This document shows, in pieces, positions 23,534-43,679 of a stretch of DNA of 64,000 bases. The position numbers were made by a program, and so were the translations under genes. Source of the DNA: Clostridia bacterium. GTDB taxonomy: Bacteria; Bacillota; Clostridia; Monoglobales; Monoglobaceae. Every line of letters begins with the position of its first letter. Position 1 is the first letter of the stretch. The notes beneath the pieces were generated by a model. The model searched no databases. It was not told the origin of the DNA and saw only the letters and a list, made by a program, of their open reading frames with translations. The DNA lies in the NCBI GenBank assembly GCA_017546165.1, contig JAFYXL010000011.1:1-64000 (forward strand), given 5' to 3'.

Positions 23534-26110
23534 ATGATTGATAAGGAAAAAGATTTAAAGTTAGACAAAGCTAACCAAACGGCTGAAGAAAAGCTTTTAA
23601 CAGCAGAAGAAAAGATAAAAAGCCTTGAGGAACGCATAGAGGCTGACCGCAATGCCATTATGCAAATTCAATTTGAGGCAAAACAGCACAAGCAAGAGGA
23701 GTTGGATTTGCACGATACATATGTGTGGCGGACGGGTCTCAAAATAGAAAAGTTGTTGCAAAAGACGGGTATTGCCTTTATCCGTTCGCTTCTTGAAATT
23801 TCAGATTACAAGCGAATGGGTCTTTTGGTGACTTTGCGCAAAGGTATAAATGAAGGTTTGCACAGAGAAAACGTGGAAAAAAAGAAAAAAAGAAGACTTG
23901 AGCTTTGCCGTCAGAAGTTTGTAAGATACAAAAAGGAAAGGGAAAATATTGTCCCTTGCCAAATAACAAAATTTGATGTGCCAAAGACAGAGGGCCTTGT
24001 ATCAATTGTTCTTCCTGTTTTTAACGGTGAAAGAGTTTTAAAAAATTCTATTGAAAGTGTGCTTTCACAGGAATATAAGAATATTGAGCTTATATTGGTA
24101 AATGACGGCTCCACCGATGCAACCCTTCAGATTATGGAGGAGTTTAAAAATAGGGATTCACGAATTAAAATAATCAATCAGGAAAACAAAAAGCTCCCCA
24201 CAGCTTTGTCTGTGGGATTTCGTGAAGCAAATGGCGAGTTTTTTACCTGGACCTCTGCTGACAACATTATGCTGCCCCACTGCATAAAAACAATGGTTGA
24301 GGACTTAAAGAGAAAACCTGATGTTGCAATGGTTTACGGCAATATGCGTCTTATTGATGCAAGGGGATATATAAAGCGGGGAAAATTCTGGTTTGAAAAA
24401 CCCTTCTTTTCAGGCAATGTATGCTTCCCCAATGATGCCAAGTGCCTTAACACTTATGCCAACAACACAATAGGCGCAGCGTTTTTGTACAGGGCTGAGG
24501 CGGCATATATTTTGGGGGATTACTCAAAATATAAGACAAATCTTGAGGATTATGATTATTGGATGAGGATGAATTCTCTCCTTAAAATTGAACACACTGA
24601 TGACAAAAGACCTCTTTATCTCTATCGCATCCATGACGAGTCTCTTACTGCCCACGACCGTGAGCTGGGTATAACAAAAAACCGTTACAAGCTTATGGTA
24701 TTGGACGATTTCCGCCGTGACTTTTATATGTCCAATTTGGTGTGGATTGCAGAAACAGATTCGCAGGGAAATCCGTACTATTGCGAGTTCTTAAAGGAAG
24801 TTGAAAAATCAGGTCATATGATCCTTTCAAGGGAAGAAGCGTTATCCTGTAGCCCTGCTGAGGAATATTCCTGTTTTTGTTACATATATTTTGGCAAAAA
24901 CCCAAATCATGAGAGACTTTTGGAGATGAGGAGATTTTCAGGGACAGTTTTGGTTGCAGACAGCACAGATATACAAATGGCTGAGGAGTTTGACCTTTGC
25001 ATAACAACAAACAAAGACAGCAATCTTAAGAAGCTTTCTGCATACAAAGGTTGGTTTTTGGCTGAGGACAGCAAAAGTATATTTGATATTTCTGAAACCA
25101 AAATTAAAAATCAGATATTATACTCTCTTGAACGGATAATTGATGACCCCCCTGAATATGAAAAGAAGATTTCAATTATAATCTGCACATACTTAAGAGG
25201 CGAAAAGTTAGCTGACGCTATCTGGTCGGTAATCCGCCAGTCTATGAGCAAGAAAGAATATGAAATTATAGTTGTGGACAATGCCCCCTTTACATCAGGA
25301 ATACGGGCAGATGTAGATGCCTTTAAGGAAAAGTACAGTGAATATGAAGGCTTTATCCGATATATCGGTGTTCCGCAAAAGGGACTTTCCTATGCCCGCA
25401 ACGGGGGAATGTGGAACGCAAAAGGCGAATATCTTCTGTTTTTGGATGACGATGTCCTTGCGGATTATTATTTGCTTGAAGAAATTTACAGCGGTTTTAA
25501 GTATCATCCCAGTGTGGGGATTGTGGGGGGTCAGGTTATTCTTGACAAGCCATTCCCCACACCAAAGGTTGTTCGCAAAGGCTGGGAAAGTCTTTGGAGT
25601 CAGTTCAAAATATCTGGAAGTGCATTCAGAGAGGTTACGCAGCAGTTTGAGTTTCCTTACGGTGCGGATTACAGCGTAAGACGAAGTGCTATATGGCGGG
25701 TTGGCGGTTTTAGAATGTGCTATGGCAGAGTTGGCAATGACTTTGCAGGCGGCGAGGAAACTGCTCTTGCTTTCAAAATGCTGGAAATCGGTTACGGCAT
25801 TGGGCTTCAGCCCCGGGCAAAGGTTTTGCACAGGGTGGATCACTCACGCTTTACCACAGAGCACGTGAAGAAGACAATTATGGCGGGTACTATTACCACA
25901 TACAGGTTCTTTATAGACCTGCACACACATTTTGGCTGGACAAAGAGATATGTAAAAAATCAGATAAAAATAACCAACAAGGAAATTGAAATCCTGACAA
26001 ACAAGAAGGCGGACTCCCTTGATATATACTTCAAAAAGTGTTATCTTGGGGCCTGGGAAAGACTTATTCAATATATGACGCAAATTGAGGAGGACGGACG
26101 AGATGCTTAG
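23534..26110 (+). CDS. Two-domain GT2 glycosyltransferase
   Basis: The 858-residue protein has a charged, probably coiled-coil N-terminus (residues 1-60), a first GT-A family 2 domain (about 155-400: SIVLPVFNGERVL, VNDGSTDATL, TWTSADN as the DxD-like site, YGNMRLIDARG) and a second GT2 domain (about 540-800: SIIICTYLRGEKL, VVDNAPF, LLFLDDDVLADYY, GGEETALAFKM). It probably adds two sugars in turn to a surface polysaccharide. The following gene is a paralogue. Donor sugars cannot be told from the sequence. Confidence 0.9.
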   Translation: MIDKEKDLKLDKANQTAEEKLLTAEEKIKSLEERIEADRNAIMQIQFEAKQHKQEELDLHDTYVWRTGLKIEKLLQKTGIAFIRSLLEISDYKRMGLLVTLRKGINEGLHRENVEKKKKRRLELCRQKFVRYKKERENIVPCQITKFDVPKTEGLVSIVLPVFNGERVLKNSIESVLSQEYKNIELILVNDGSTDATLQIMEEFKNRDSRIKIINQENKKLPTALSVGFREANGEFFTWTSADNIMLPHCIKTMVEDLKRKPDVAMVYGNMRLIDARGYIKRGKFWFEKPFFSGNVCFPNDAKCLNTYANNTIGAAFLYRAEAAYILGDYSKYKTNLEDYDYWMRMNSLLKIEHTDDKRPLYLYRIHDESLTAHDRELGITKNRYKLMVLDDFRRDFYMSNLVWIAETDSQGNPYYCEFLKEVEKSGHMILSREEALSCSPAEEYSCFCYIYFGKNPNHERLLEMRRFSGTVLVADSTDIQMAEEFDLCITTNKDSNLKKLSAYKGWFLAEDSKSIFDISETKIKNQILYSLERIIDDPPEYEKKISIIICTYLRGEKLADAIWSVIRQSMSKKEYEIIVVDNAPFTSGIRADVDAFKEKYSEYEGFIRYIGVPQKGLSYARNGGMWNAKGEYLLFLDDDVLADYYLLEEIYSGFKYHPSVGIVGGQVILDKPFPTPKVVRKGWESLWSQFKISGSAFREVTQQFEFPYGADYSVRRSAIWRVGGFRMCYGRVGNDFAGGEETALAFKMLEIGYGIGLQPRAKVLHRVDHSRFTTEHVKKTIMAGTITTYRFFIDLHTHFGWTKRYVKNQIKITNKEIEILTNKKADSLDIYFKKCYLGAWERLIQYMTQIEEDGRDA

Positions 26111-28340
26111 TTATCTGAAAAAACTTATCTGGGGCCAAAAGCTCCCTGACAAAAAACCTCTTAATCTTTATCAATACAAATTTATAAGATATAAGGAGGA
26201 ACGCGAAAAGGCATATCCTCTGCCTCTTTCAAAGGTTCACGTGCCGCAGATAGACGACCTTGTGTCGGTTATCCTGCCTGTCTATAACGGCGGAGATATA
26301 TTGGCTGACTCGATTGAGTCGGTGCTTGAACAGACCTATGAGAATTTTGAGCTTATAATAATCAACGACGGCTCAAAGGATAAAACCCTGGAAATCGCAC
26401 AGGAATATGCAAAAAGGGATAAGAGAATAAAGGTTCTCACCCAGGAAAATAAAAAAATACCCCGCACTCTTTCGCGTGGGTTTAACGAAGCAAGGGGCGA
26501 GTTTTTGACCTGGACCTCTGCTGACAATGTAATGGACAGGGATTTTCTTGAAAAATTGGTTGAAGACCTTCGCTCAAAACCTGATGTCGGTATGATTTAC
26601 GGCAATATGCGTCTTATTGACGCCCGGGGAAAACGCTTGCGTAAGCACGGATGGTATGAATTTCCTTTTGGCAGCGGCAATGTAATTTTTCCCAACAATA
26701 CCTGCGAACTTAATACCTATGCCAACAATACCATAGGTGCAGCCTTTATGTACCGGAAATCTGCAAAGGAAATTTTGGGCTGCTATTCAAGCTACAAGCA
26801 CACGCTTGAGGATTATGATTACTGGATGCGCATGAATTGTCTTTGCGGAATAGAGCATACTGATTTTTTGGAACCGGTATATTCATACCGTTGGCACGAC
26901 GGCTCACTGACTGCAAAAGATAAGGAACTTGGTATCACCAAAAGCCGATACAAATTGATGGTTTTGGATGATTTTCGCCGTGACTTTTACCTTATGCCTC
27001 TTTTGTGGTATGTAAAAGCAACCCCTGAGTATGAGGAATTGGCAGAGTCATTCAAGGCGGAACTCCGCCGTGCAGGACATGTGATTTTGGTAAAGGAAGA
27101 CTTTCCTCAATTGTTTTTTGGAGAGGCCGCATCAAATCTTTGTTATATATCATTTGGCGGCGAGCGTGCAGATGTAACTTTGCCTGCGGATACAATAAAA
27201 ATTGGGTTAGGCGCGCCTAACCACAACGAGAATGGTTTTGACATTCTTTGCTCAATAGGTGAAAAAGCCATAATGGGGTGGGAAAAACCCGAATATGTGT
27301 TTGAAGATGTTGCCACCATGTTTTCATTTATTGATGCAAAAGCAAAGAACGATATGCTCTATAACCTGGAGGGCATAATTGAAAGAACAGAGGAATTTGA
27401 AAAGAAGCTTTCGGTTATACTCTGCACACACAAAATGACCGATACTTTAAAAGATTGCCTTGATGCAATTTGCAATCAAACAGCAAACAAGAAGGATTAC
27501 GAATTGGTTTTTGTGAACAACAGTTTCAGGGATGATAATCTTAAGGAGCTTGTTCAGGACTTTAAAAAAGAATATCCTGAGCTTGATATAAATTATATAA
27601 CAGCCCCCCTGAAAGGTCTTTCTTTTGCCCGCAATATGGGTCTTTGGGCGGCACGGGGCGAATATGTCCTCTATGTTGATGATGATGCAATAATGGATAG
27701 CCAAGTAGTTTTGGAAACAATCCGTAGTTTTGATGGGGATTTGGAACTTGGCGTTGTTGGAGGCAAGGTTGAACTAACCATACCCGACGATGCAAAAAAT
27801 CTTGTCACCAAAAACACCATTGGACTTTGGAGTGACCTGTCCATTGACGGAGATGATATAAAGTACGCAAAGGATTACGGCGACTTTCCCTATGGGGCAA
27901 ATTTTGGAGTAAGGACATCAGAACTCCGCCGGATTGGTGGCTTTAGAACAGGCTATGGCAGAGTTGGCAACAATTTTGCAGGTGGCGAAGAAACGCTGGT
28001 TTGCTTTATGATGGATACAATCCACAAAAAGGTGGCACTCAACCCCCGTTCACGTGTGGAGCATCGTATTGCAGAGGACAGGTTCAATACGGAACACATT
28101 GAAAAAACCGTGTATTCGGGGGTTATGACCCAATATCGTTTGCGTCTTGACCTTTATGCGCCTCAGGATTGGAATGATATGAATGTTCGCGAAAGGATGC
28201 TTCGGGGTGAACGTCTGGCAAAGATCGAAAAAGAGGGCAGTGCGGATTATATTTTCCACAAGTCAACTGCCAAAGCCTTTGAAGATGTTTTGAATTTGAG
28301 ACAAAAAGATTATGAATATATGGTTAAGAACAAGGTTTAA
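26103..28340 (+). CDS. Two-domain GT2 glycosyltransferase, paralogue
   Basis: The 745-residue protein parallels its neighbour over most of its length: first GT2 domain with SVILPVYNGGDIL, INDGSKDKTL, TWTSADNVMD and YGNMRLIDARG, and second with SVILCTHKMTDTL, VLYVDDDAIMD and GGEETLVCFMM. It lacks the neighbour's coiled-coil N-terminus. The start is set at 26103 because GAGGAGG lies just upstream; it overlaps the previous gene by 8 bases. The two look like a tandem duplication that has diverged. Confidence 0.9.
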   Translation: MLSYLKKLIWGQKLPDKKPLNLYQYKFIRYKEEREKAYPLPLSKVHVPQIDDLVSVILPVYNGGDILADSIESVLEQTYENFELIIINDGSKDKTLEIAQEYAKRDKRIKVLTQENKKIPRTLSRGFNEARGEFLTWTSADNVMDRDFLEKLVEDLRSKPDVGMIYGNMRLIDARGKRLRKHGWYEFPFGSGNVIFPNNTCELNTYANNTIGAAFMYRKSAKEILGCYSSYKHTLEDYDYWMRMNCLCGIEHTDFLEPVYSYRWHDGSLTAKDKELGITKSRYKLMVLDDFRRDFYLMPLLWYVKATPEYEELAESFKAELRRAGHVILVKEDFPQLFFGEAASNLCYISFGGERADVTLPADTIKIGLGAPNHNENGFDILCSIGEKAIMGWEKPEYVFEDVATMFSFIDAKAKNDMLYNLEGIIERTEEFEKKLSVILCTHKMTDTLKDCLDAICNQTANKKDYELVFVNNSFRDDNLKELVQDFKKEYPELDINYITAPLKGLSFARNMGLWAARGEYVLYVDDDAIMDSQVVLETIRSFDGDLELGVVGGKVELTIPDDAKNLVTKNTIGLWSDLSIDGDDIKYAKDYGDFPYGANFGVRTSELRRIGGFRTGYGRVGNNFAGGEETLVCFMMDTIHKKVALNPRSRVEHRIAEDRFNTEHIEKTVYSGVMTQYRLRLDLYAPQDWNDMNVRERMLRGERLAKIEKEGSADYIFHKSTAKAFEDVLNLRQKDYEYMVKNKV

Positions 28341-30362: not shown

Positions 30363-30794
30363 TTAAAGTTTACAAATGTCAGCTTCTGTTATAAGTTTAA
30401 AGCCTGCATTTGTGAGTGCTGATTCTGCAGCTTGGTTGTTTTCAACTCTCAGCACTACATAAGCGTGCTTTTCTGTACGAGCCATAAAAGCATAGAGATA
30501 TTCTACATTGATATCTGCCTTATCAAGAATGTCAAGAGCTGCGGTGAGTTTGCCCGGTTCATCACCGATTTTAACCCCCACAACATCAACTACCTTAATA
30601 AGATAGCCCTGTTCTTTGAGCACTTTTTCTGCTGTGTTCTCGTCATTTACGATAAGACGGAGAATACCGAAATCTTCTGTTTCCGCAATGGAAAGTGCTC
30701 TCAGGTTAATGTTATTTTTAGCAAGTATATCTGTTACTGCAACGATTGCACCTTTTCTGTTTGGAACAAAAACTGTTAACTGTTTAATAGCCAT
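30363..30794 (-). CDS. Tandem ACT-domain protein
   Basis: The 143-residue protein consists of two ACT domains, starting AIKQLTVFVPNRKGAIVAVTDILAKNNINLRAL and with the second half beginning VVDVVGVKIGDEPGKLTAALDIL. ACT domains usually bind amino acids. Its gene lies 16 bp after the phenylacetate-CoA ligase gene and would share the Phe T-box leader, an arrangement also common elsewhere in anaerobes. It may sense an aromatic amino acid and adjust the ligase. The ATG at 30794 was chosen; a TTG two codons earlier also exists. Confidence 0.88.
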   Translation of the reverse strand: MAIKQLTVFVPNRKGAIVAVTDILAKNNINLRALSIAETEDFGILRLIVNDENTAEKVLKEQGYLIKVVDVVGVKIGDEPGKLTAALDILDKADINVEYLYAFMARTEKHAYVVLRVENNQAAESALTNAGFKLITEADICKL

Positions 30795-30810
30795 TTTCAA
30801 ATCCCCTTTC

Positions 30811-32118
30811 TTAAATTAATTTACGCTTATCAATTACACGAACTGCCTTGCCTTCACTTCTTGCAATGCTCTTGGGAGCAACAAGGTGAACTGTCGGATT
30901 GATGCCGAGCATTGTTTTCATTGCATTTGCAAGAGCTTTTTCCATTGCAAGAACATCGCTTACTTTATCTGTGAACTGTTCGGGAGACATTTCTACATTT
31001 ACCTCAAAGGTATCTGTATTGTTTGCTCTGTCAACAACAATCTGATAGTTCGGCTGGTAACCCTCGTTAAGAAGAACAGTTTCAATCTGGCTCGGGAATA
31101 CATTGACACCTCTGATGATGAGCATATCGTCTGTTCTGCCCATAGGTTTGGCCATTTTTATGAGGGTTCTTCCGCAAGAGCATTTCTTTCTTGAAAGAAC
31201 ACAAATATCTCTTGTTCTGTATCGAAGAAGTGGGAATGCTTCTTTGTCTAACGATGTGAATACAAGCTCGCCTTTTTCGCCTTCAGGAAGAACTTCACCG
31301 GTATCAGGATTGATAATCTCTGCAAGGAAGTGGTCTTCGTTGATGTGCATACCTGATTGTTCACTGCACTCAAATGAAACTCCGGGGCCTGATGTTTCAG
31401 TGAGTCCGTATATGTCATAAGCGCGAATACCAAGTGTTTCTTCAATACCTCTGCGCATTTCTTCTGTCCAGGGTTCAGCTCCAAAGATACCTGCTTTAAG
31501 AGGAATATCCTCAGGTTTATATCCCTGTTCTTTTAATGTTTCGCCAATATATGCCGCATATGAAGGAGTACAGCATAGGATTGTGGCGCCGAGGTCCGTC
31601 ATAAACTGAATCTGACGGTCGGTGTTACCGGATGACATAGGCAGCGTAAGACAGCCAACTTTGTGAGAGCCACCGTTGAGTCCCGCACCGCCTGTGAAAA
31701 GTCCGTATCCGTAAGCAACCTGGCAAACGTCTTTATTGCTGCCGCCTGCCGCAACAATTGCACGGGCGCAGCAATCTTCCCAAAGGTCAATGTCCTTTTG
31801 TGTGTAGAAAGCAACCACACGGCGGCCGGTTGTTCCTGATGTGGACTGAATACGAACACAATCTTCAAGAGGTTTTGCAAGCAAACCGTAGGGATAAGCG
31901 TCTCTTAAATCCGCTTTTGTAAGAAACGGGAGTTTGTGCAAATCTTCAATTCCTTTGATGTCTTCAGGTTTAACCCCTTTTTCGTCCATTAAGTTGCGGT
32001 AGTACTCCACATTTTCGTAAACATGCTTAACCTGTTTTACCAGTTTCTCGGATTGAAGCTTTTTGATTTCTTCAACCGGCATGGTTTCAATTTCTTTTTG
32101 ATAGTAGTTCTGAGCCAT
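30811..32118 (-). CDS. paaK: Phenylacetate-CoA ligase (PaaK family)
   Basis: This 435-residue AMP-forming enzyme makes phenylacetyl-CoA or a related aryl-acetyl-CoA from acid, ATP and CoA. Motifs are IQSTSGTTGRRVVAFYT, FGAEPWTEEMRRGIE, DIYGLTETSGPGVS and the C-terminal GRTDDMLIIRGVNVFPSQIE. In anaerobes it works with indolepyruvate:ferredoxin oxidoreductase, either in degrading or, in reverse, in making aromatic amino acids. A T-box leader with an apparent Phe codon precedes it, which favours the biosynthetic use. The start is uncertain: 32118 is best spaced from GGGAAGG, while 32130 is the first ATG. Confidence 0.9.
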   Translation of the reverse strand: MAQNYYQKEIETMPVEEIKKLQSEKLVKQVKHVYENVEYYRNLMDEKGVKPEDIKGIEDLHKLPFLTKADLRDAYPYGLLAKPLEDCVRIQSTSGTTGRRVVAFYTQKDIDLWEDCCARAIVAAGGSNKDVCQVAYGYGLFTGGAGLNGGSHKVGCLTLPMSSGNTDRQIQFMTDLGATILCCTPSYAAYIGETLKEQGYKPEDIPLKAGIFGAEPWTEEMRRGIEETLGIRAYDIYGLTETSGPGVSFECSEQSGMHINEDHFLAEIINPDTGEVLPEGEKGELVFTSLDKEAFPLLRYRTRDICVLSRKKCSCGRTLIKMAKPMGRTDDMLIIRGVNVFPSQIETVLLNEGYQPNYQIVVDRANNTDTFEVNVEMSPEQFTDKVSDVLAMEKALANAMKTMLGINPTVHLVAPKSIARSEGKAVRVIDKRKLI

Positions 32119-32184
32119 TTCTTTGTTCATCCTTCCCAATACACTTAAATTTTGTTTAAACAGGCCTTTGATGCAAGGAAAATA

Positions 32185-32470
32185 AAAAAGCCCCCTGCAA
32201 TCCTGTTTCAGGATACAGAGGACGAAAATAACATTTCCGTGGTACCACCTCAGTTCGCCGCTATCTCACGGTAGCGACCTTATCAGGTACTAATATACCT
32301 TAGTTCTGTGACGGGAACGCCCGTTGCCTCCTACTTAAGATTACTCTTGTTCAGTGCACTGCTAACAGAAGGAATTCGTCAAGGTCATCACCATTGCCTC
32401 GCACCCACCGGCAACTCTCTTAAGGGCTCTTTCCAGGATTACTTAGTTCTGCTCAAACGCATTTAACTTT
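32185..32470 (-). promoter_or_regulatory. T-box leader 1, apparent Phe (TTC) specifier
   Basis: Minus strand. The T-box sequence AGGTGGTACCACGG lies at 32237-32250, followed by a terminator stem at about 32190-32223. Stem I has AGTA on its 5' side and GAA then TTC on its 3' side (specifier 32372-32374), plus the distal GGTGCGAGG loop. The promoter is TTGACT (32499-32504), 17 bp, TATAAT (32476-32481). It should raise paaK and ACT gene expression when uncharged tRNA-Phe accumulates. Confidence 0.9.
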
Positions 32471-35736: not shown

Positions 35737-38037
35737 TTACTTGTTCATTTTCTCCAAGTCGTTTTTGCGGATTTCTACACGTCTTACCTTGCCGCTGATG
35801 GTTTTTGGAAGCTCATCTACAAATTCAACGATTCTCGGGTATTTGTAAGGAGCAGTATGTGTTTTTACATATTCCTGAATTTCTTTTTTAAGTCCGTCTG
35901 TACCTTCGTTGCCTTTTACAAGTACGATGGTGGCCTTTACAATCTGACCGCGAACTTCATCGGGAACAGGAGTGATTGCACATTCCAAAACATAAGGAAG
36001 CTCCATGATAACACTTTCGATTTCGAAAGGTCCGATGCGGTAGCCGGATGATTTGATAACATCATCAATACGGCCAACATACCAAAGGTATCCGTCTTCG
36101 TCCATTGTGGCCTGGTCTCCGGTATGATAGAATCCGTCGTGCCATACTTCCTTTGTCTTTTCGTCATCCAGGTAATATCCGGTAAAGAGCCCGCAAGGAA
36201 CATTATCCTTTGTGCGGATACAGATTTCACCTGCGTCACCGGTTTTACATTCATTGCCGTCAGGATCCAAAATGACAACATCGTAGAGTGGACTGGGTCT
36301 GCCCATAGAACCGATTTTTGGTGTTGAGCCCACAAAGTTTGCGATAGAAAGTGTGGTTTCAGTCTGCCCGAAGCCTTCCATAATGGTAAGCCCGGTTGCT
36401 TTTTTGAATTGATTGAATACCTCAGGGTTAAGTGCCTCACCGGCTGTTGTTGCATACTCGATAGAAGAAAGGTCATACTTTGACAAATCTTCCTTGATGA
36501 AGAATCGGTACATTGTAGGAGGAGCACAGAAGGTTGTGATGTTGTATTTTGCAAACATAGGCAGAATATCTTCTGAATGGAATCTGTCAAAGTCATAGGT
36601 AAATACTCCTGCTTCGCAGAGCCACTGACCGTAAAGCTTGCCCCAAAGCGCTTTGCCCCAACCGGTATCGGAAATTGTAAAGTGAAGTCCGTTAGGATTT
36701 ACATTGTGCCAATGCTTTGCTGTGGGATAGTGACCGAGAGCGTATTTATATGAATGAGTTGCAATACGGGGATATCCTGTGGTGCCTGATGTAAAGAGCA
36801 TAAGCATTGGGTCGTTTCCGCAGGGAGTGTTTTCGGTACGGTTATAGTGAGTGCTGAAACGCTCCATTTCAACGTTGAAATCGTTCCAGCCTTCTTTACT
36901 ACCCCCAACCAAAACCTTAATCATTCCGGGGAATTCTTTAGCAGCCTTTTCTGCCTCCAGTGAAACATCTCCGTCTGCGGTACATACAATTGCTTTTACC
37001 TTAGCCGCTTTGTATCTGTACTCAAAATCATGCTGGACAAGCTGATTGGTTGCAGGAATTGCGATAGCGCCGATTTTGTGAAGGGCAAGCATTGAGAACC
37101 AGAACTGATAATGTCTCTTTAAAACAAGCATTACGGTGTCACCCTTTTTGATGCCGAGAGATTCAAAATAATTCGCAGTTTTTGCTGAATACTTTTTCAA
37201 ATCACTGAAAGTAAATTTGCGGTCCGACTTATCATTTGCTACCCACATCATTGCTAGTTTATCAGGGTTCTTCTTTGCAATAGCATCAACGCAATCAAAT
37301 GCAAAGTTAAACTTATCATCATTTTTGAAAGTGATGCCGTTAAACACGCCGTTTTCATCATAAGATGATTCAATGAATTTATCTGCAACAGTCTCTGATT
37401 TTGCTTTTTGTGCAGCAACTTTAGCTGCAATTATTGGAGCCTCAGGGTATTCTTCGCTTACCTTGCCGTCCTGGGGATTGAGTACAACCGCATGGAATTC
37501 ACACCCGCCCTCTGATGCTGCGACCATACCGTGAGGGATTATGCTGTTGTAGAAGATAGAGTCGCCTTCGTGGAGAATATCTACGTGATTGCCAACCTGA
37601 ACTTTGAGTGAACCCTTAACGATAACATCAAATTCCTGACCATTGTGTGAATTTAACTTGATTGGTTGGTTTTGTTCTTCTTCAAGATAAGGGAATTTAA
37701 CCAGAAATGGCTCTGCAAGCTTTTCTTTGAACTTTGGAGCAAGGTTGTTGTAAACCACGCCATGCTTTTTAACAATTTTCAAACCTTCGCCTTTTCTTGT
37801 GATAGCAAAAGATGTAAGGGTTGTACTTGTACCTTCAAGCAAATCAACAACCTCAACGTTGCAGGCCTTTGCGCATTTGTAGATAAAGGTAAAGCTGAAG
37901 TCTGTTTCACCCATCTCCAAAACTTTGTAATCCTCAACTGACACACCTGTGAGCTTTGCAAGTTCCTCCTGTGTGTATCCTTTTGCCTCGCGCAGGTCTT
38001 TGATTCTTCCTGCCACTTCTTTTAAACTGTAATCCAT
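35737..38037 (-). CDS. XRE-cupin-acyl-CoA synthetase fusion
   Basis: The 766-residue protein joins three parts: an XRE helix-turn-helix (about 5-60: VAGRIKDLREAKGYTQEELAKLTGVS), a cupin domain (about 95-180: HNGQEFDVIVKGSLKVQVG, HEGDSIFYNSIIPHG) and an AMP-forming acyl-CoA synthetase (about 210-766: MLFTSGTTGYPR, MEGFGQTETT, YHTGDQATMDEDGYLWYVGRIDDVIKSSGYRIGP, final KTISGKVRR lysine). XRE-cupin proteins are usually separate regulators, so this enzyme may also bind DNA or the HTH may be structural. The start at 38037 has AAAGGAG; the longer frame would read into the T-box. A fatty or branched acid substrate is likely. Confidence 0.88.
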   Translation of the reverse strand: MDYSLKEVAGRIKDLREAKGYTQEELAKLTGVSVEDYKVLEMGETDFSFTFIYKCAKACNVEVVDLLEGTSTTLTSFAITRKGEGLKIVKKHGVVYNNLAPKFKEKLAEPFLVKFPYLEEEQNQPIKLNSHNGQEFDVIVKGSLKVQVGNHVDILHEGDSIFYNSIIPHGMVAASEGGCEFHAVVLNPQDGKVSEEYPEAPIIAAKVAAQKAKSETVADKFIESSYDENGVFNGITFKNDDKFNFAFDCVDAIAKKNPDKLAMMWVANDKSDRKFTFSDLKKYSAKTANYFESLGIKKGDTVMLVLKRHYQFWFSMLALHKIGAIAIPATNQLVQHDFEYRYKAAKVKAIVCTADGDVSLEAEKAAKEFPGMIKVLVGGSKEGWNDFNVEMERFSTHYNRTENTPCGNDPMLMLFTSGTTGYPRIATHSYKYALGHYPTAKHWHNVNPNGLHFTISDTGWGKALWGKLYGQWLCEAGVFTYDFDRFHSEDILPMFAKYNITTFCAPPTMYRFFIKEDLSKYDLSSIEYATTAGEALNPEVFNQFKKATGLTIMEGFGQTETTLSIANFVGSTPKIGSMGRPSPLYDVVILDPDGNECKTGDAGEICIRTKDNVPCGLFTGYYLDDEKTKEVWHDGFYHTGDQATMDEDGYLWYVGRIDDVIKSSGYRIGPFEIESVIMELPYVLECAITPVPDEVRGQIVKATIVLVKGNEGTDGLKKEIQEYVKTHTAPYKYPRIVEFVDELPKTISGKVRRVEIRKNDLEKMNK

Positions 38038-38097
38038 TGTTTTGTCTCCTTTCATTTTCGTAATCTTAAATTTGGTTACGAATTCGAATAAAACAAA

Positions 38098-38393
38098 AAA
38101 CCCGTCCCAAAAAAATCTTTTGAGACGAGTTTTGATAACCCGCGGTACCACTCAAATTACGGAAAGAAAATATTCCGTCACTTACCGGACTCTAACAAGC
38201 CCTTTGCCTTTACGCAGCATTACGGAAGGAATCTACTAAGCTCTGCCTTTCGGTCCTCCGACTCAGAGGTGATAAGTCATTGGAAAGCTTCACCATTGCC
38301 TCGCACCACCCGGCAACTCTCTCAAGGTTTCACAATCCGACCGTCCTCGTCACAGTCGTTTTTTTGTGATATTCAAATTTAAAATGTATTATA
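38098..38393 (-). promoter_or_regulatory. T-box leader 2, probable Ile (ATC) specifier
   Basis: Minus strand. The T-box core AGTGGTACCGCGG lies at 38140-38152, and the terminator GTCTCAAAAG/TTTTGGGAC at about 38100-38131. Promoter TTGACA (38411-38416), 17 bp, TATAAT (38388-38393). The distal loop GGTGGTGCGAGG is present. The specifier side reads GACTTATCACCTC without the usual GAA; by distance to the lower stem the codon is ATC (38271-38273), but TTA (Leu) cannot be excluded. Confidence 0.85.
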
Positions 38394-40901: not shown

Positions 40902-42290
40902 TTAAGCCTCCTCAAAAACAATCTTGTTAAGTGCATTTATATATGCTCTGATGCTTGCTGCGATAATATCGGTTGAAGTTCCGTTGCCTGAATAAAGTTT
41001 TCCGTTGTTGCGAAGTCTGACCAAAGCAGAACCTAACGCTTCTTTTCCTTCTGTTACAGACTGAACCTGAAAATCATCAAGCTCATAATGATGCCCTATG
41101 CACTGTTCTATGGCGCGGAATGCCGAGTCAACAGGACCGTCTCCGTTGCTTACGCCGCATATAACCTCATCATTACATTTGAGTGTAACCTGTGACATTG
41201 AATTTGCCGCATTGCTGCTTGTAGTGGTATAGGTTTCAAAATGATATGTTGAAGGAGCTTGCATAGCAGAACTTGCGATTAAAGCTTCAAACTCTTTTAC
41301 GCCAACAGCGCCCTTCTTTTCGCATACCTGCATAAGTGCTTTAAACACACTTCCGATATCTGAATCAGAAAGATCGTATCCAAGAACTTTAGCGGCCTGA
41401 ACAACCTGTGCCATAGAAGAATCTGAGTCAAGTAAAATCTTTTTCTTGTCGCTTACGGGTTTCTCTGTTTCATAAGCTTCGTGATTTATACTTGAGAGCA
41501 TATCGTCAATGCTTGAATGAATTTTTGTGTTATTGAGTTCAATTTTTGCGTCTATCTGTGAGCCACAAACACTTATGGCATCAGAAAATTCTCCGGCAAG
41601 AAGAATATCTTTGCCTGTCATAGCGCATTTGATACCGTCAGCGCCTTTTGAAATTGAAGCAAAGGCTGCTGCTACACCCATATTTATGCGGTCAGAAACC
41701 TGAACATATACAGGAACGTTTACGGCTTCTTTAACTGTTGCAATTAACTTTGCGATTTCTTCAGGAGTTGATGCACCTGCATTATCGCAAATGGTGATAA
41801 TCCCTGCCCCGCTCTGTTCAGCTACCTTTGCGGCTTCAATAAGAAAATCTGCATCTGCTCTTGTTGCGTCAAGGGCAGAAAACTCAACATCATCGCAGTG
41901 TGTTTTTGCCTCTTTTGTAAGCTCTGCAATTTTTTCAAGCATAGCTGCCTGTTTAACGTGATATGTGTATTCCATCTGAAGTGTTGATACGGGAAGTTCA
42001 ACCTGAAGACGGGGTTTCTTTGCATCCTTAATACATTCCCACGAAGTGGCAACATCTTCCTTGTTAAAGCCGACAGAAATGGCAAGAGCTGCGTTTTGAA
42101 CATTCTGCGCAATTGTTTTATAAATAATTGTATCCTCACGAAGATTTTTCACGGCCGGCAGTTCAACAGCATTTACGCCAAGTAAATCTGCACAATTTGC
42201 TATTGCCGATTTCTCACGGAAAAGTAGTGAAATTTCACGTTCCTCTGAAAGTTTTTTAAGAGTAATGTCTGTAATGTTGATTTTTCTCAT
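40902..42290 (-). CDS. LeuA-like protein lacking catalytic motifs
   Basis: The 462-residue protein has the HMGL-like TIM barrel (SALDATRADADFLIEAAKVAEQSGAGIITICDNAG) and an intact-looking LeuA C-terminal regulatory domain (about 345-460: GVSNGDGPVDSAFRAIEQ, GNGTSTDIIAASIRAYINALN). It resembles 2-isopropylmalate synthase, but the essential RDGEQ near the start is KKLSE (residues 12-16), and the metal-binding HxHND is QVSD (197-200). Claisen condensation activity is therefore unlikely. It may sense leucine or serve as a partner of the ligase in the same operon. It follows a T-box with an apparent Leu codon; AAAGGAG precedes the ATG. Confidence 0.85.
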   Translation of the reverse strand: MRKINITDITLKKLSEEREISLLFREKSAIANCADLLGVNAVELPAVKNLREDTIIYKTIAQNVQNAALAISVGFNKEDVATSWECIKDAKKPRLQVELPVSTLQMEYTYHVKQAAMLEKIAELTKEAKTHCDDVEFSALDATRADADFLIEAAKVAEQSGAGIITICDNAGASTPEEIAKLIATVKEAVNVPVYVQVSDRINMGVAAAFASISKGADGIKCAMTGKDILLAGEFSDAISVCGSQIDAKIELNNTKIHSSIDDMLSSINHEAYETEKPVSDKKKILLDSDSSMAQVVQAAKVLGYDLSDSDIGSVFKALMQVCEKKGAVGVKEFEALIASSAMQAPSTYHFETYTTTSSNAANSMSQVTLKCNDEVICGVSNGDGPVDSAFRAIEQCIGHHYELDDFQVQSVTEGKEALGSALVRLRNNGKLYSGNGTSTDIIAASIRAYINALNKIVFEEA

Positions 42291-42341: not shown

Positions 42342-42631
42342 CAAAAAAACGCTTCCATCTCTTTGCTGATTCAAAGAGACGAAAACGTTAAAATCTCAGC
42401 GTTTCCGCGGTACCACTCTTCTTCATCCGAATTGGATGCCCTTTAGATGCAATCACATCCCAACTCTGTTACGGGAGTTCCCGTCTGCCCTTACTGAAAA
42501 GTTCACGGCAGCCACTCCGCGGTGAGTTCAGCAAAACTCTCCCAATGCCTCGCACCATCCGGCATCTCTCTCAAGGCGAAAGCCTTTGCATACTATTCCG
42601 CATCTCAGCGTTTGAATTAAGAGGTATTTTA
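42342..42631 (-). promoter_or_regulatory. T-box leader 3, apparent Leu (CTC) specifier
   Basis: Minus strand. The T-box core AGTGGTACCGCGG is at 42405-42417 and the terminator stem at about 42342-42388. Stem I has AGTA on the 5' side and GAA-CTC-A on the 3' side, with the specifier at 42524-42526 next to the CCGC/GCGG lower stem. Promoter TTGACA (42649-42654), 17 bp, TAAAAT (42626-42631). Expected to induce the LeuA-like and ligase genes on leucine shortage. Confidence 0.92.
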
Positions 42632-42773: not shown

Positions 42774-43123
42774 TGGTGGAGGCGAGGGGAATTGAACCCC
42801 TGTCCGAAAACCTATCCATATCCGACCCTACGAGCGTAGTCTTTGTTTAAGGTTCCCCACACCGATTGCCCAAAGACAGGCGAGCGGTGCCGGTAGCTTC
42901 ATAAAATCGTGACCTCATCAAAGCTTTTGAGGTTCATGTTCACCGCGTCTGATGATACCCTGATTCACCCTTGCGGTGAGGGTGAGAGGGCAGCGCCTAT
43001 AACTTAGGCAGCGTAAGCTAAATTATTGTTAGCGTTTAATTTTAAGTTTTAGGTTTTTTGCGCAGCACCCACTGCGGCTCGCTCCGAATACTTCAAAATC
43101 CCCGTCGAAACCATTGCGCCCCC
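42774..43123 (-). ncRNA. ssrA: tmRNA
   Basis: The 5' end GGGGGCGCAATGGTTTCGACGGGG and the 3' end GGTTCAATTCCCCTCGCC with a terminal CCA form the tRNA-like domain; the acceptor GGGGGCG pairs with CGCCTCC. In the middle, a reading frame ends TTAGCTTACGCTGCCTAA, giving a tag that ends LAYAA; the likely tag is ANNNLAYAA with a GCT resume codon. tmRNA rescues stalled ribosomes with SmpB, whose gene lies 86 bp further on (43209). Confidence 0.95.
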
Positions 43124-43208: not shown

Positions 43209-43679
43209 TTATCTAACCTGTTCCTTCATAGCTCTGTCGATTCTGCGCTTTGAGTCCCTCTCGGCAATAGAATCACGTTTGTCATAATTCTTTTTGCCTC
43301 GGCAAAGTCCAAGGAGCACCTTTGCATAAGATCCTTTGAAGTACATCTTAAGGGGTATCAGGGTATATCCCTGTTGCTGAGTCAAACCGATGAGCTTGTT
43401 TATCTCCCGCTTGTGGAGAAGAAGTTTGCGTTCCCTGAGGGGGTCTTTGTTAAAAATGTTACCTTTTTCGTAAGGTGAGATGTGCGTACCTATCAAAAAC
43501 GCTTCGCCGGTTTTGACCGATACGTAACTATCCTTTAAATTGACTCTGCCCTCCCGCAAAGACTTTACCTCAGTTCCGAAAAGGGAAATGCCTGCTTCAA
43601 AGGTCTCATCCACAAAATAGTCGTGGTACGCCTTTTTGTTCTGGGCGATGGTGGTGTCTTGATTTTTGTCCTTTGCCAT
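43209..43679 (-). CDS. smpB: SsrA-binding protein SmpB
   Basis: SmpB binds the tRNA-like part of tmRNA and brings it to stalled ribosomes. The 156-residue protein has the family segments [49 protein letters not shown] and the basic C-terminal tail [21 protein letters not shown]. It is immediately upstream of ssrA on the same strand. AAAGGGG precedes its ATG. The assignment is secure. Confidence 0.97.

Follow-up and report, generated by a model that had tools for sequence, protein, structure and literature searches.

The window, the 64,000-nucleotide stretch of DNA analysed here, carries a gene that would at first sight be called leuA, and the question it raises is what such a gene does once the active site of its product has gone. 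The preliminary description of this DNA, drawn from the sequence itself, reported a LeuA paralogue with the HMGL-like barrel (including DATRAD) and the LeuA C-terminal domain, and noted that RDGEQ had become KKLSE and HxHND had become QVSD, with loss of the catalytic Arg/Asp and of the metal histidines. It also placed the gene behind a Leu T-box and one base from a ligase gene. The roles it offered were a leucine sensor, an inhibitor or scaffold of the ligase, or a new enzyme. The features of the locus are collected in Table 1.

Table 1. Positions of the LeuA-like gene, its protein segments and the neighbouring T-box and ligase genes in the window.
Feature	Position	Strand	Evidence
LeuA-like pseudoenzyme (P0001), 462 aa	40902-42290	-	ORF, Pfam, NCBIfam, alignments
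Degenerate HMGL-like TIM barrel, residues 1-226	41613-42290	-	PF00682, AF2 model, 3ewb match
KKLSE where LeuA has RDGEQ, residues 12-16	42243-42257	-	Alignment
VQVSD where LeuA has [SV]HCHN/D, residues 196-200	41691-41705	-	Alignment
LeuA regulatory (leucine-binding, dimerisation) domain, residues 331-462	40905-41300	-	PF08502, family conservation
T-box leader, specifier CUC (Leu), ahead of the LeuA-like gene	42372-42615	-	RF00230, 124.6 bits
Acyl-CoA ligase with N-terminal xylose-isomerase-like TIM barrel, 819 aa	38441-40900	-	AMP-binding 9.5e-95, AMP-binding_C, AP_endonuc_2 (Pfam)
T-box leader, specifier AUC (Ile)	38118-38362	-	Rfam, alignment
HTH-cupin-acyl-CoA ligase (MbcS-like) behind the Ile T-box	35737-38151	-	HTH_3, Cupin_2, AMP-binding
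T-box leader, specifier UUC (Phe)	32215-32466	-	Rfam, alignment
Phenylacetate-CoA ligase, PaaK-like	30811-32139	-	TIGR02155 525.7 bits, under cut-off
ACT-domain pair protein directly after the PaaK-like gene	30363-30800	-	PF19571 1.9e-24

Loss of the LeuA active site and reversed conservation

Pfam matched residues 4–226 of the LeuA-like protein to the HMGL-like family (2.4e-29) and residues 332–457 to LeuA_dimer (PF08502, 8.4e-32), and DATRAD is retained, in agreement with the first reading of both domains. NCBIfam LeuA models score the protein far under their cut-offs (TIGR00973, 222.8 bits against a cut-off of 598.7). Alignments bear out the reported substitutions: the catalytic Arg and Asp of RDGEQ are gone, and both metal His are replaced, by Q197 and S199. 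The protein thus resembles LeuA (TIGR00973; PDB 3ewb, 3rmj, 3fig) in fold, domain order, leucine regulatory domain and descent, but differs from it in lacking the RDGEQ Asp, the HxH pair and the NGxGERAGN loop, which is the source of the metal Asn in LeuA and is deleted here. Its linker is also about 40 residues shorter, the GIHQ...YE segment being missing. On these grounds it is predicted to be incapable of the metal-dependent condensation performed by LeuA.

The regulatory domain carries the motifs GDGPVD and VTEGKEALG, which in LeuA belong to the loop-and-pocket region responsible for feedback by leucine (PMC11057210). Within this domain, G383, G385, P386, G415 and G420 are invariant across 52 LeuA-like sequences. 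Judged by sequence, the leucine-sensing site appears to have been retained, while the residues needed for catalysis are lost. Sequences in the PDB matched the isolated regulatory domain weakly (3f6g, E 0.033).

The AF2 model of the protein has a mean pLDDT of 87 and a pTM of 0.59, so that the arrangement of the domains is uncertain, and its best Foldseek matches are to M. tuberculosis LeuA (MtLeuA). The modelled barrel superposes on 3ewb with a TM of 0.92 of the target and an rmsd of 1.7 Å, and its fold is predicted to be intact. The preliminary description had proposed modelling the metal site to look for alternative ligands; the former metal positions, which are those compared here, are occupied by neither His nor Asp.

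LeuA-like relatives are present in the window's own GTDB family. Of 391 genomes from the class Clostridia, 45, distributed over 19 families, have one, and a genome collection yielded 80 contigs with a relative, most of them from ruminant-gut Clostridia MAGs. A few of these contigs are labelled Spirochaetales, one Salinivirgaceae, and others carry further labels; misbinning of MAGs can explain some of the odd ones. Among 90 aligned relatives, none keeps the RDGEQ Asp or either metal His, GER is absent from all, and the GIHQ and YE segments of the linker are deleted throughout. The RDGEQ Arg is kept in 35 of the 90, the motif positions varying among R/K/C/A/S and E/K/Q/V. In the regulatory domain, five of the seven LeuA-invariant residues are kept in at least 80% of the same 90 relatives; in the barrel, D8, R144, D169 and the MEY motif are nearly invariant across the family. 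Identity within the family is 0.42 for the barrel, 0.30 for the linker and 0.64 for the regulatory domain, versus 0.58, 0.54 and 0.42, respectively, in 17 true LeuAs. Conservation is reversed relative to LeuA: the regulatory domain is the most conserved part and the barrel much less so.

In a maximum-likelihood tree, a branch with SH-aLRT 100 separates the 36 sampled members from the rest, within bacterial LeuA. The LeuA-like proteins form one clade nested in bacterial LeuA and belong to the LeuA superfamily by descent; given this single clade, several independent losses of the active site need not be assumed. Pairwise dN/dS against close relatives, a rough measure here with several dS values saturated, is about 0.1 for the barrel and about 0.03 for the regulatory domain. 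The family is under purifying selection, and the open frames in relatives together with the low dN/dS argue against chance decay of the gene. Though dead as an isopropylmalate synthase (IPMS), the barrel is constrained, and its role may go beyond holding the sensor. In genomes G088 and G251 (loci L117, L118, L121 and L122), the most basal lineage of LeuA-like proteins occurs together with true LeuA and LeuB, possibly an intermediate stage of pathway replacement.

The partner ligase and the T-box regulon

The TAA of the LeuA-like gene (40902–40904) lies one base from the ATG of the acyl-CoA ligase gene, as had been described, and an alternative start of the ligase frame, at 40936, is a further ATG in frame that lies upstream, inside the LeuA-like gene. 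The preliminary description had suggested searching other genomes for the pair. The ligase follows on the same strand in 45 of 45 class genomes, mostly 1–11 bases past the LeuA-like stop, and directly follows the LeuA-like gene in 79 of 80 loci, the remaining locus being at a contig end. The ligase motifs are intact in the window's protein. The metal residues of the N-terminal TIM barrel are lost in ligases of the window's clade and intact in ligases lacking a LeuA-like partner, as well as in some that have one (this motif comparison leaves out the L098 row, which holds the wrong ligase). The ligase fusion also occurs without the LeuA-like protein in 73 further class genomes; such ligases stand behind Leu T-boxes in L109, L111 and L115 and inside a VOR operon in L110.

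T-boxes turn genes on upon shortage of their cognate amino acid. The specifier of the leader ahead of the LeuA-like gene aligns as GAA-CUC-ACC, confirming the leucine assignment made at first sight. Specifiers were read from covariance alignments; a regex count overlooked many leaders and returned four odd codons, whereas at least L058 reads CUC in the covariance alignments. The leader is conserved in relatives, six divergent ones reading CUC, and every clearly read specifier is CUC apart from one CUG, all of them Leu codons.

Further leaders in the window precede other ligases. The best NCBIfam match of the HTH-cupin ligase behind the Ile T-box is MbcS (451.8 bits, under its cut-off), and the gene itself probably starts downstream of 38118. 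At many related loci two HTH-cupin-ligase fusions occur in tandem, perhaps serving Ile and Val. The ACT-domain pair protein that follows the PaaK-like gene may, by analogy, be an aromatic amino acid sensor of that ligase. On contig C39 of the same genome, a Tyr (UAC) T-box heads an acyl-CoA ligase-IorA-IorB operon (L105 2981–7377), which suggests tyrosine synthesis from 4-hydroxyphenylacetate. Taken together, the Leu, Ile, Phe and Tyr specifiers and the ligase types pair each amino acid with the acid that its ligase should activate. Induction by the Leu T-box on leucine shortage speaks for synthesis rather than breakdown.

Proposed synthesis of leucine from isovalerate

Contig C39 also carries an ATPase-VorD-VorB-VorA-VorC-BCAT operon (ferredoxin, three oxidoreductase subunits and branched-chain aminotransferase). 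The T-box ahead of it has a specifier that aligns as CUC, in an alignment with a short insertion. VOR and aminotransferase were named by recognising their sequences, the gamma subunits alone having a supporting Pfam POR match. The VOR operon consistently opens with the gene of a ParA/MinD-like ATPase (L105 17027–17686 and relatives). The two units are fused in several lineages: L116 and L119 have the LeuA-like gene, the ligase, BCAT and VorDBAC in one operon, and at 20 of 80 loci VorA lies at most 10 kb from the LeuA-like and ligase genes. The window's genome has all three components, ligase, 2-oxoacid:ferredoxin oxidoreductase and aminotransferase, co-regulated by Leu T-boxes.

The classical route is poorly represented beside them. 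In the window's genome (88% complete), no LeuC was found, no LeuA or LeuB was detected at the thresholds used, and no convincing IlvC (KARI) was seen, the best match reaching 21 bits at most; the only two HMGL-like proteins are the LeuA-like protein and one resembling oxaloacetate decarboxylase. Across the genomes compared, in which MAG incompleteness has to be reckoned with, LeuB is present in 6 of 45 genomes with the pair versus 57 of 73 ligase-only genomes (p = 3e-12) and 223 of 346 other class genomes (p = 4e-11), both p values being uncorrected for kinship. True LeuA occurs in two of the six pair genomes that have LeuB. Within the window's own family, pair genomes are without LeuC, while most pair-less genomes have it. 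We also considered a dominant inhibitor of true LeuA, and rejected it because no true LeuA is seen in the window's genome and most pair genomes lack LeuB.

Synthesis of leucine from isovalerate is established in the rumen (Allison, 1962, 1966, as cited in PMC7356843) and is described in methanogens (PMC10658910). Genomics strongly supports the view that the present bacteria would make leucine in this way, by CoA activation, reductive carboxylation and transamination, and regulation and context suggest that the partner ligase is an isovalerate-CoA ligase. The metabolic route would be the one of the rumen studies; whereas that work, as cited there, consists of labelling and physiology, the present loci add candidate genes, a T-box regulon and a putative feedback sensor. 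The methylbutyryl-CoA synthetase MbcS of Staphylococcus aureus (PMC10026030) likewise acts on exogenous branched acids, and the ligase under the Ile T-box resembles it. MbcS accepts 2-methylbutyrate and isobutyrate but acts poorly on isovalerate (PMC10026030), which fits a separate, Leu-controlled ligase here.

Proposed role of the LeuA-like protein and alternatives

Active-site loss, reversed conservation, ligase linkage and the Leu T-box regulon together favour a leucine-sensing partner of the ligase. Among the roles first offered, it is thus the regulatory one that gains, now set in a pathway from isovalerate that the preliminary description did not contain. We consider it probable that the protein is a regulatory pseudoenzyme, a dead LeuA that provides leucine-sensing control of the ligase in a replacement leucine pathway. 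One bacterial LeuA ancestor would have lost all metal-dependent condensation chemistry once and kept its leucine-binding domain; its host would have had both routes, and LeuA would have survived as a sensor when LeuABCD was lost. Low charged tRNA-Leu would open the T-box, so that the LeuA-like protein, ligase, VOR and aminotransferase are made. The co-translated ligase would then convert isovalerate to isovaleryl-CoA in the committed step, VOR (2-oxoacid:ferredoxin oxidoreductase) would yield 4-methyl-2-oxopentanoate by reductive carboxylation, and the branched-chain aminotransferase would turn this into leucine. Plentiful leucine would bind the dead LeuA dimer and restrain the ligase, sparing ATP and isovalerate; the control would thus be inhibitory (or a release), and the Leu T-box would set the transcription level of the same pathway.

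A more far-reaching version, which we advance tentatively and hold to be somewhat improbable, has the dead LeuA and the degenerate TIM barrel of the ligase bound obligately to each other as a leucine-gated isovalerate-CoA ligase, with both dead barrels purely regulatory. The classical feedback sensor would then have been transplanted once onto the replacement pathway and would since have spread among gut Clostridia, apparently reaching some spirochaetes as well.

HisZ, an inactive paralogue of histidyl-tRNA synthetase, mediates histidine inhibition of HisG (PMC10795190). The arrangement proposed here would be analogous to HisZ-HisG(S), the short-form ATP phosphoribosyltransferase, in combining a dead paralogue, the end-product amino acid and the first enzyme of a pathway. 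The proteins are unrelated, however, and the complex here is a putative one, the link observed being co-translation. The dead enzyme, moreover, would stem from the lost leucine pathway and control the first enzyme of its replacement.

The open-access literature on isovalerate, LeuA and T-boxes yielded no earlier account of a LeuA-like/ligase/T-box system. The loci supply candidate genes and control for the conversion of isovalerate to leucine in rumen bacteria, whose physiology, as cited in PMC7356843, has been known since the 1960s, and alongside the leucine route stand ligases matched to Ile, Phe and Tyr, each behind a T-box of its own. If the proposed role is true, an enzyme has lost its chemistry, kept its product sensor and come to control an unrelated enzyme of the replacement pathway. 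Annotating the LeuA-like gene as leuA would wrongly assign classical leucine synthesis to these bacteria.

It is unlikely that the protein, instead of being a regulatory pseudoenzyme, senses no leucine and serves the ligase or a ligase-VOR complex as an assembly scaffold or as an activator. Such a role would suit the near-invariable co-translation with the ligase and the fact that the LeuA_dimer domain also dimerises, but dimerisation alone leaves the strong constraint on GDGPVD and VTEGKEALG unexplained, and ligase-only genomes manage without a scaffold.

We find it quite unlikely that the barrel has become a new enzyme performing a metal-free step of the same pathway, for example on an acyl-CoA or a 2-oxoacid. 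The purifying selection on the barrel, the near-invariance of D8, R144, D169 and MEY and the predicted intact fold all speak for such an activity. Ligase, VOR and aminotransferase already complete a route from the acid to leucine, however; the old active-site positions vary freely, unlike a new conserved site, conservation peaks in the regulatory domain rather than in the barrel, and the ligase family also exists without the LeuA-like protein.

Still more doubtful is a ligase for branched-chain lipid synthesis or leucine breakdown, with the LeuA-like protein sensing leucine as a signal for those processes. In its favour, VOR reactions are reversible, and in Staphylococcus branched fatty acids draw on CoA ligases such as MbcS (PMC10026030). 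Against this stand the induction of Leu T-boxes on leucine shortage, a logic that disfavours breakdown in particular, the operons joining the pair to VOR and branched-chain aminotransferase, the absence of the LeuABCD route from most of these genomes, and the matching ligases driven by Ile, Phe and Tyr T-boxes. An ordinary relic, a LeuA pseudogene decaying inside a T-box operon, would account for the lost active-site motifs, but full-length open frames in 19 families, a single clade and dN/dS well under 1 make its probability negligible, and selection and breadth rule out pseudogene decay.

Several other features were seen nearby. A tmRNA gene lies at 42774–43123 (- strand), with a small ORF resembling smpB directly upstream at 43209–43679 (- strand). 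Two adjacent large proteins of similar sequence, encoded at 23534–28340, look like tandem glycosyltransferases. Beyond the window, its own contig (C36) carries a 6S RNA and a THF riboswitch (L108 4014–5975).
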